This document shows positions 8,527 to 10,299 of a stretch of 26,978 nucleotides of DNA, one piece after another (position 1 is the stretch's first letter; each line of letters starts with the position of its first letter). The notes beneath the pieces were generated by a model. It had not been told where the DNA came from. It saw only the letters and a list, made by a program, of their open reading frames with translations, and searched no databases. The translations under genes were made by a program, and so were the position numbers. Source of the DNA: Campylobacteraceae bacterium (GTDB lineage Bacteria; Campylobacterota; Campylobacteria; Campylobacterales; Sulfurovaceae); NCBI GenBank assembly GCA_027002755.1, contig JALWZI010000043.1:1-26978 (forward strand), read 5' to 3'.

Positions 8527-8532
8527 TATAAT
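8527..8532 (+). promoter_or_regulatory. -10 box for the thioredoxin-like selenoprotein candidate
   Basis: CCGCTATAATC contains a perfect TATAAT 28 bases before the ATG at 8561. The ribosome site AAGGAG is at 8550-8555, five bases before the ATG. Both support a functional gene beginning at 8561 rather than a decayed one. Confidence 0.6.
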
Positions 8533-8560
8533 CTCTTATCATGAAAAATAAGGAGAACGG

Positions 8561-8953
8561 ATGAAACGATCTGTTTTCGTTCTTTTGGGGCTCCTCTTCC
8601 TCAGCGGATTCGCCACAGCCTCCGGATGGCTGCACGACTACGAGGAAGGACTGGAGAAGGCCCAGAAAGAGCATAAACTCGTTTTGATGATGTATGTCAA
8701 AAAGACCTGACCGGTCTGCAATCGTATGGAACAGGCTGTTCTACCACAAAAAGATGTTGCAGATCTGCTGGCGAAGCATTTCGTCACGGTCATTCTGGAT
8801 ATCGACGATCACATGCTGCCTGAAGGCTTCGGCTACTTTGCCGTTCCGACCTTCTACGTCATCGATTCCAAGGGGAAAAAGCTTGACCGGGCAGTCGGCG
8901 GTGCCGATGCTGAGACTTTTCTGGAGTTTCTCCGAAAATTCGTCAAGGAGTAG
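8561..8953 (+). CDS. Secreted thioredoxin-like protein with an in-frame TGA read as selenocysteine (U50-P-V-C53); candidate selenoprotein
   Basis: Reading from the ATG at 8561 (AAGGAG, 5-base spacer) gives 130 codons to TAG at 8951, interrupted only by TGA at 8708-8710. The first 20 residues are a signal peptide (MKRSVFVLLGLLFLSGFATA). The rest is a thioredoxin_7-like fold: a YEEGLEKAQKEHKLVLMMYV helix and strand, then KKT-TGA-PVCNRM, and the cis-proline segment AVPTFYVID. The TGA falls exactly on the first residue of the expected CPVC motif, giving UPVC. A hairpin with an AGGCT loop follows (8727-8743), resembling a bacterial SECIS. A protein starting at the ATG at 8726 would lack the signal peptide, first strand and active site and has no ribosome site. 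The alternatives are a one-base nonsense mutation (TGC to TGA) or a sequencing error. A periplasmic thiol or selenol oxidoreductase role is inferred; the partner is unknown. Confidence 0.65.
8727..8743 (+). promoter_or_regulatory. SECIS-like hairpin after the in-frame TGA
   Basis: TGGAAC (8727-8732) can pair with GTTCTA (8738-8743) through six pairs, one of them G-U, leaving the loop AGGCT. The loop GG is about 24 bases after the TGA. The fdhF SECIS of E. coli has an AGGUCU loop, with its GG about 20 bases downstream. The position and loop fit a SelB-binding element, but the stem is short and this was folded by eye. Confidence 0.5.
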
Positions 8954-9042
8954 CTCCCAACGGGGACGACCCGTCTCCATGATCTTTTCAACCCACTATG
9001 CAGTCAAAAGAGACGTATCCAAGCTCAGTCCAAAGGTCCATC

Positions 9043-10299
9043 ATGCAGAGTGAAAACCTGATCATCGGAGGAGGGGTCATCGGCCTCATGACCGCCTATA
9101 TGCTAATTCGGGCGGGACGGGAGGTTACCGTCATCGACAGGGGACGGATCGAAAACAGCACATCCTTCGGCAATGCCGGATTGCTGAGCGCTTTCGAAAA
9201 ATCGCCTCTCTCCGCACCGGGTGTCGTCTCCAAGACCCTCAAACTGATGCTCAAGGGCCAAAGCCCCATGTTTCTCAACCCCACACCGGATCCCCACATC
9301 TACCGATGGATTCTGAACTTCGTCAAAAATGCCAACGAAGAGCGCCTGAAAAAGACGTTGGCACTCTTCGAGAAATACGGTGAGATCGCAATGGGGTACT
9401 ACAGGGAGATGCAGGAGGACCTGGGGCTCGATCTCGATTTCCACCGGGAAGGGCTGCTGATGGTCTACACCCTACAGGAGAGTTTCGACGAGCGGCGCCG
9501 ATCCATCGAAGGAGAAGAAGAGGAAGCATGCGAAGAGAAATACAGCCTCCTCACCCCCTCGGAATGTCGGAACTATCTGCCGCTGCTCAACGACAGGATC
9601 GCCGGGGGTATCCTCCTCAAACGCAACGGCCACCTCGATCCCGGACGGATGATGCGAAATCTCAAAGCCTATCTGGAGGGACAGGGCGTGCGTTTCATTC
9701 TGGAAGAGGAGATCGTCGATTGGGAGCTGAAAGATCATCGGGTCGTCGCCGCCATTGGAAAAAAAGGCCGTTATCCGGCTCGAAACCTCATTCTCTCCAA
9801 CGGGGCCGACCGGAGCCTGGCGAAGCAGCTCGGTCGGGATCTGATGATGACCCCGGCCAAAGGGTACAGTATCACTTTCGGGATGGAAGAGTCCCTCAAA
9901 CCCAGAGTCCCTGCCCTTTTCAACGATCTCTTCATCGCCTGTACGCCCAGGCGGAACGATGTTCGTCTCACCAGCAAACTGGAGCTTGGTTCCAGGGACC
10001 CCAGGCCGCTGCAGAAGCGGATCGACAGCTTTTTGAACCATTTCCGGGAATATACCCGGCCTTTCGAAATGCACCATCCCGAAACCTGGGCTGGTTTCCG
10101 TCCTCTGACTCCCAACGACCGCCCCCTCGTCGGGCGTGAAGCGCGTTATCCGAACCTCATCTACGCGACCGGTCTGGGCTGGCTGGGGATCACCATGGGA
10201 CCGGCGGTTGGAGAGATGGTCGCCGATCTGATCCTCCGGGAAGCCCCGGACAAAAAGAGTGACGATATCCTGCTCTTCTCCGGATTCTGGCAGGGTTAG
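9043..10299 (+). CDS. DadA-like FAD-dependent D-amino-acid dehydrogenase / DAO-family oxidoreductase
   Basis: This is a 418-residue DAO-superfamily flavoprotein. The N-terminus carries the FAD motif LIIGGGVIGLMTAYMLIRAG with VTVID after it, then STSFGNAGLLSA, typical of DadA-type proteins. The C-terminus has WAGFRPLTPNDRPLVGR and ATGLGWLGITMGPAVGEMVADLI, the usual second FAD and substrate part. DadA oxidises D-amino acids to oxo-acids and passes electrons to the respiratory chain; glycine or sarcosine-like substrates are also possible. A longer reading begins at 8998, but the ATG at 9043 has AAAGG seven bases upstream and starts directly at the FAD strand, so I chose it. The 89-base gap after the selenoprotein candidate has no clear promoter, so they may be co-transcribed. 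Confidence 0.85.
   Translation: MQSENLIIGGGVIGLMTAYMLIRAGREVTVIDRGRIENSTSFGNAGLLSAFEKSPLSAPGVVSKTLKLMLKGQSPMFLNPTPDPHIYRWILNFVKNANEERLKKTLALFEKYGEIAMGYYREMQEDLGLDLDFHREGLLMVYTLQESFDERRRSIEGEEEEACEEKYSLLTPSECRNYLPLLNDRIAGGILLKRNGHLDPGRMMRNLKAYLEGQGVRFILEEEIVDWELKDHRVVAAIGKKGRYPARNLILSNGADRSLAKQLGRDLMMTPAKGYSITFGMEESLKPRVPALFNDLFIACTPRRNDVRLTSKLELGSRDPRPLQKRIDSFLNHFREYTRPFEMHHPETWAGFRPLTPNDRPLVGREARYPNLIYATGLGWLGITMGPAVGEMVADLILREAPDKKSDDILLFSGFWQG

Follow-up and report, generated by a model that had tools for sequence, protein, structure and literature searches.

Thiol:disulfide interchange proteins of domain family PF13098 that carry a UxxC motif (U, selenocysteine or Sec) are listed as a predicted selenoprotein family in the excerpts of PMC13188914 and PMC9312934 considered here. 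UxxC motifs in bacterial thioredoxin-like selenoproteins were thus already on record, as had been stated in an earlier interpretation of the DNA without database searches (hereafter the sequence-only reading). The candidate seleno-thioredoxin gene described here lies on contig JALWZI010000043.1 of assembly GCA_027002755.1, the whole analysed stretch of which (26,978 nucleotides) is referred to as the window. It shares with the PF13098 UxxC family the Pfam domain, the motif and the place of the Sec codon at the first CxxC residue. This likeness was drawn from domain and motif; the family's listed reference sequence is WP_011366075.1.

Selenoproteins of Epsilonproteobacteria, the same bacterial class, were presented by Cravedi et al. 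(2015; PMC4607533), the main text of which names Fdh, SelD, SelW, one thioredoxin and DUF466, together with a common hairpin of 5/6 bp displaying an invariant G in its loop. Nitratifractor (Campylobacterota), which we infer to be the host genus, is absent from that main text, although the supplement may list relatives. In the consulted parts of PMC3847290, Nitratifractor appears in a figure legend and selenocysteine through a cited paper only. Among the papers listed by literature searches, none dealt with a selenoprotein of Nitratifractor.

The DsbD gamma domain and DsbH differ from the protein encoded here, which is free-standing and would display Sec in place of the first Cys. It is 130 residues long and scored 24 bits with the DsbD model NF001419 (cut-off 330) and 24.1 bits with the DsbH model NF043050 (cut-off 190). 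TsoB, a rhodanese/DsbD fusion-like selenoprotein (NF045694), matched it with its C-terminal part (E = 9.9e-6) but is a fusion of 572 positions, and the score of 23.9 bits was far from the cut-off of 805.

Conservation of the UGA codon

The 130-codon frame is interrupted by a single in-frame TGA, which occupies codon 50 and hence the first position of the CxxC motif (UPVC), just as the sequence-only reading had it. Its further claim, that selenocysteine would be inserted at this TGA, was supported by conservation, by a downstream hairpin and by sel genes, and the seleno-thioredoxin is very probably made whole by reading UGA50 as Sec.

A match to the gene was found in 53 of the 60 related genomes forming the first sample. 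The 11 best matches each carried one TGA, and no other TGA was encountered among the matches listed. Carriers were the window genome and eight more genomes of its genus; outside the genus, one belonged to the same family (47 % identity) and one to a different family (40 %). The TGA position was identical in all 11, and this agreement among the best matches from 60 genomes makes it more than a chance occurrence. One of the 11 genomes is assembled as a single contig, and its frame contains a protein named as Nitratifractor salsuginis. At residue 50, the alignment of homologues separated these nearest relatives from more distant ones, all of which (13/13 aligned sequences) displayed Cys. No close Cys form was present among the matches listed from 13 genomes of the genus. 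When 397 genomes of the phylum were sampled in a second round, 67 gave a match at E 1e-15 or better; five of these were of the TGA form, all already among the 11.

The 44-row tree placed all 11 Sec rows together on one side of a branch (support 92/92), which was recovered in 90 % of 200 bootstrap trees. An earlier tree of 46 rows required two label changes, as row L045_C, filled to 10 %, had come to lie within the Sec group; the 44-row tree was rebuilt with a stricter filter, by which L045 and L034 were dropped. In the 36 pairs formed by the nine genus sequences, mean pN/pS was 0.13 before the TGA (leaving aside the first 22 columns) and 0.28 after it, with median dN/dS of 0.05 and 0.16, respectively. 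Such purifying selection, before the TGA as well as after it, indicates that both halves are kept as protein.

A SECIS-like hairpin

If columns are numbered from the T of TGA, the stem joins 21-26 to 30-35 around a GGN loop (8728-8733 with 8737-8742 in the window). All 54 cells were paired in the nine distinct sequences representing the 11 genes, and one pair switches from G-C to A-U in two sequences. When the partner strand was slid by one to three columns, 44-63 % of the cells were paired. Covariation score and paired-cell share were equalled in 8 of 500 shuffles; the number of pairs with double changes was equalled in 186/500 and the number of further pair types in 500/500. With 6 bp, its GGN loop and 23 nt of spacing, the hairpin fits the model of the bacterial selenocysteine insertion sequence (bSECIS) as quoted in the consulted part of PMC13188914: a place 16-37 nt downstream of the UGA, an upper stem of 4-16 bp, and a loop of 3-9 nt with G in its first two positions.

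The Cys control consisted of 37 segments. They came from 35 of 40 Cys loci (L027-L045, L095-L115), the ones retained by a motif filter, with two segments each from L041 and L042. None of these segments displayed the full six pairs, while seven displayed five pairs and five had GG at the loop place. The GG-loop hairpin proposed earlier within SECIS range was therefore borne out by comparison (11/11 UGA genes versus 0/37 Cys segments). Constraint was also visible at synonymous level. Same-residue codon identity reached 90 % (277/307) at codons +7 to +13 versus 51 % (1802/3527) outside codons 0 to +16, and the three windows with the highest synonymous conservation, out of 120, started at +6, +8 and +7. 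For L026, 47 % of synonymous redraws gave six pairs and a GG loop; for each of the remaining 10 sequences the share was 5 % or lower.

Fold predictions, on the other hand, weigh against this hairpin. RNAalifold favoured another pairing on the 48-nt alignment, reaching into the TGA; single-sequence folds varied, and the best fold of the first 50 nt from the window pairs otherwise. The RNA-fold comparison was thus favourable as to retention of the hairpin in UGA genes and synonymous constraint, and unfavourable as to the fold given by RNAalifold.

Selenocysteine machinery

The window genome assembly (1.57 Mb, 300 contigs, 75.6 % complete) contains selA, which scores 470 bits and is truncated by the end of its contig. 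An N-terminal fragment of selD, likewise at a contig end, covers 52 profile positions and stays under cut-off. The fragment displays a TGA within KAAGUAAKLGPGD, the usual Sec/Cys site of SelD. As this TGA falls at the active site, SelD of the window genome (L015:1-201, minus strand, contig C88) is probably a selenoprotein too. Neither a selB above cut-off nor a tRNA-Sec (selC) was found in this 75.6 %-complete assembly, yet each was detected in nine of the 11 carriers, selB being missed in G000 and G005 (threshold E 1e-60) and tRNA-Sec in G000 and G006 (threshold E 1e-8). The search for sel genes in the window genome yielded selA and a UGA-bearing selD fragment. Seven SelB-family matches were all under cut-off (best 193 bits versus 242), one of which (L010, at a contig end) looked by eye like a CysN-like GTPase beside a CysD-like gene. 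The tRNA-Sec candidates, likewise under cut-off, were ordinary Ser, Gly, Tyr, Trp and Ser tRNAs according to ARAGORN.

Among the carriers, selA was present in 11/11 genomes (partial in G000, G005 and G006, the part from G005 being under cut-off) versus 12 of the 49 non-carriers (Fisher P = 4e-6, uncorrected for kinship), and selB directly followed selA in several relatives. Of 15 genomes searched for selD, 11 displayed a full-length match with one TGA, nine of them carriers; the exact place of the TGA was inspected in the fragment of the window genome only. G003 had a TGA-bearing selD part above cut-off, and G002 and G005 had only sub-cut-off matches devoid of TGA. In G002, which belongs to the same genus and is 99 % complete, no selA, selB or tRNA-Sec was detected at these thresholds, nor any match to the seleno-thioredoxin gene, and selenocysteine use was likely lost there within the genus. 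The gene is not universal, since G003, G007 and G012 carry sel genes without its TGA form.

Other readings of the TGA

If the TGA were a true stop, the locus would give a product of 49 residues, a C-terminal protein of 75 residues from the ATG at 8726, or both. We consider this very improbable, even though 20 homologues in a set of 5.8 billion proteins (a search that might miss records with a written U) were all 74-76 residues long, and the seven of them that were read start at the Met of 8726, six codons past the TGA. A product from 8726 would begin inside model helix 51-60, devoid of the CxxC motif and first strand; the codon at this place is GTA in L024; and the columns from signal peptide to TGA are at least as conserved as later ones (mean pN 0.08 versus 0.15). 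The 20 records are more probably truncations of the gene, which the sequence-only reading expected ordinary annotation to split or lose; the protein named as Nitratifractor salsuginis looks by eye identical to the last 75 residues of the G011 frame.

Reading of UGA as Trp or Cys, through near-cognate read-through or a changed code, would suit the Cys of more distant relatives, but there is very little to commend it. TGA is an ordinary stop here: it ends 11 of 22 evident window genes chosen from the list of open reading frames (TAA ends seven and TAG four) and also closes four of the 11 UGA genes, and the code is therefore not changed. Moreover, carriers own Sec machinery, the SelD fragment of the window genome has its TGA at the active site, the hairpin is missing from the tested Cys segments, and Trp never occurred at residue 50 in the 24 aligned sequences.

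Decay or misreading of a Cys codon in a pseudogene or faulty sequence can practically be dismissed, for although a lone premature stop is a common artefact in an assembly as fragmented as this one, the same TGA recurs in 11 separate assemblies, is flanked on both sides by strong purifying selection, and is followed in 11/11 frames by no other stop-like codon before the natural end at codon 128-132.

Predicted protein and proposed function

The thioredoxin fold announced by the sequence-only reading was recovered with PF13098 (Thioredoxin_2; 43.9 bits versus a cut-off of 27, E = 3.3e-11) and PF13899 (E = 1.7e-9), both above their cut-offs, and its cis-Pro proved to be invariant (P96). Structure matches of the model were led by a cytochrome c biogenesis-related domain, thioredoxin, DsbH and DsbD-gamma, all tied within 1 Z. 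Presumably, Sec50 is the attacking residue, Cys53 the resolving one and Pro96 the cis-Pro, as assigned from the thioredoxin chemistry of the family. The N-terminus displays K/R, a hydrophobic run and A-T-A before S21, and judging from it by eye the protein is probably exported; model confidence was low over residues 1-20.

Two frames of the window genome make an electron donor plausible and suggest a DsbD-fed reductase role for the seleno-thioredoxin. One encodes a DsbD-like protein of 416 residues that is truncated by the end of its contig and takes in the beginning of the membrane domain; the other is CcdA-like and 236 residues long. As a separate observation, the N-terminal periplasmic stretch of the DsbD-like protein (L130:2-1249, minus strand) seems by eye to be doubled in tandem, with nearly identical copies.

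Taken as a whole, we regard it as highly probable that the gene encodes an exported thioredoxin-fold selenoprotein with UGA50 decoded as Sec, serving as a periplasmic reductase with a donor of DsbD/CcdA type. SelB and tRNA-Sec would decode UGA50, aided by the short downstream hairpin, and thereby create the active site Sec-Pro-Val-Cys. The precursor would then be exported by means of its signal peptide, and in the periplasm the exposed Sec would, as expected from the family, reduce disulfides or comparable oxidised groups, with Cys53 resolving it. Electrons would probably come from a DsbD/CcdA-type membrane protein of the same genome.

Gene signals and neighbourhood

Coordinates are collected in Table 1. 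The predicted ribosome-binding site was found as described, and a similar purine-rich stretch precedes the start in relatives (by eye). The TATAAT box is present, as it is in eight of nine genus upstream stretches, but a two-hexamer sigma-70 scan returned no promoter on the plus strand. Rfam, at gathering thresholds, gave no match anywhere in the window.

Table 1. Positions of the seleno-thioredoxin gene and associated signals in the window
Feature	Position	Strand	Remark
Seleno-thioredoxin gene	8561..8953	+	130 residues with UGA as Sec; TAG stop included
TGA, predicted Sec codon (residue 50, U of UPVC)	8708..8710	+	comparison with relatives
TGC, putative resolving Cys53	8717..8719	+	Cys53 invariant in 24 aligned sequences
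Pro96, cis-Pro position of VPTF	8846..8848	+	invariant in 24 aligned sequences
TATAAT, possible -10 element	8527..8532	+	sequence
AAGGAG ribosome-binding site	8550..8555	+	sequence
Predicted signal peptide, about 20 residues	8561..8620	+	by eye from translation
SECIS-like hairpin, 6 pairs, loop GGC (8734-8736)	8728..8742	+	comparison; 23 nt after TGA

Within 1.5 kb, the gene is adjoined upstream by a phosphatase-like gene and a flavoprotein, both named by eye, at all nine loci of the genus, but not at either of the other two. Directly downstream (8998-10299) lies an FAD-dependent oxidase, DadA-like by eye, which was also encountered in L020 and in none of the other seven genus loci (1.5 kb).

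Significance

The Nitratifractor seleno-thioredoxin is a new member of an already listed kind of selenoprotein and no new kind of biology. It would add an overlooked Sec protein to this little-studied genus and would reveal entries of the protein set, one named Nitratifractor salsuginis among them, as truncated. It would also be a clear-cut example of exchange between Sec and Cys, with the SECIS-like hairpin accompanying the Sec version. More speculatively, the exported selenothioredoxin of some Campylobacterota might be a selenium-dependent outlet of the DsbD electron path in the periplasm. Its Sec would have been kept because the substrate needs selenol chemistry, and at least one relative (G002) would have lost the protein along with its Sec machinery, a proposal that we put forward as possible though rather doubtful.
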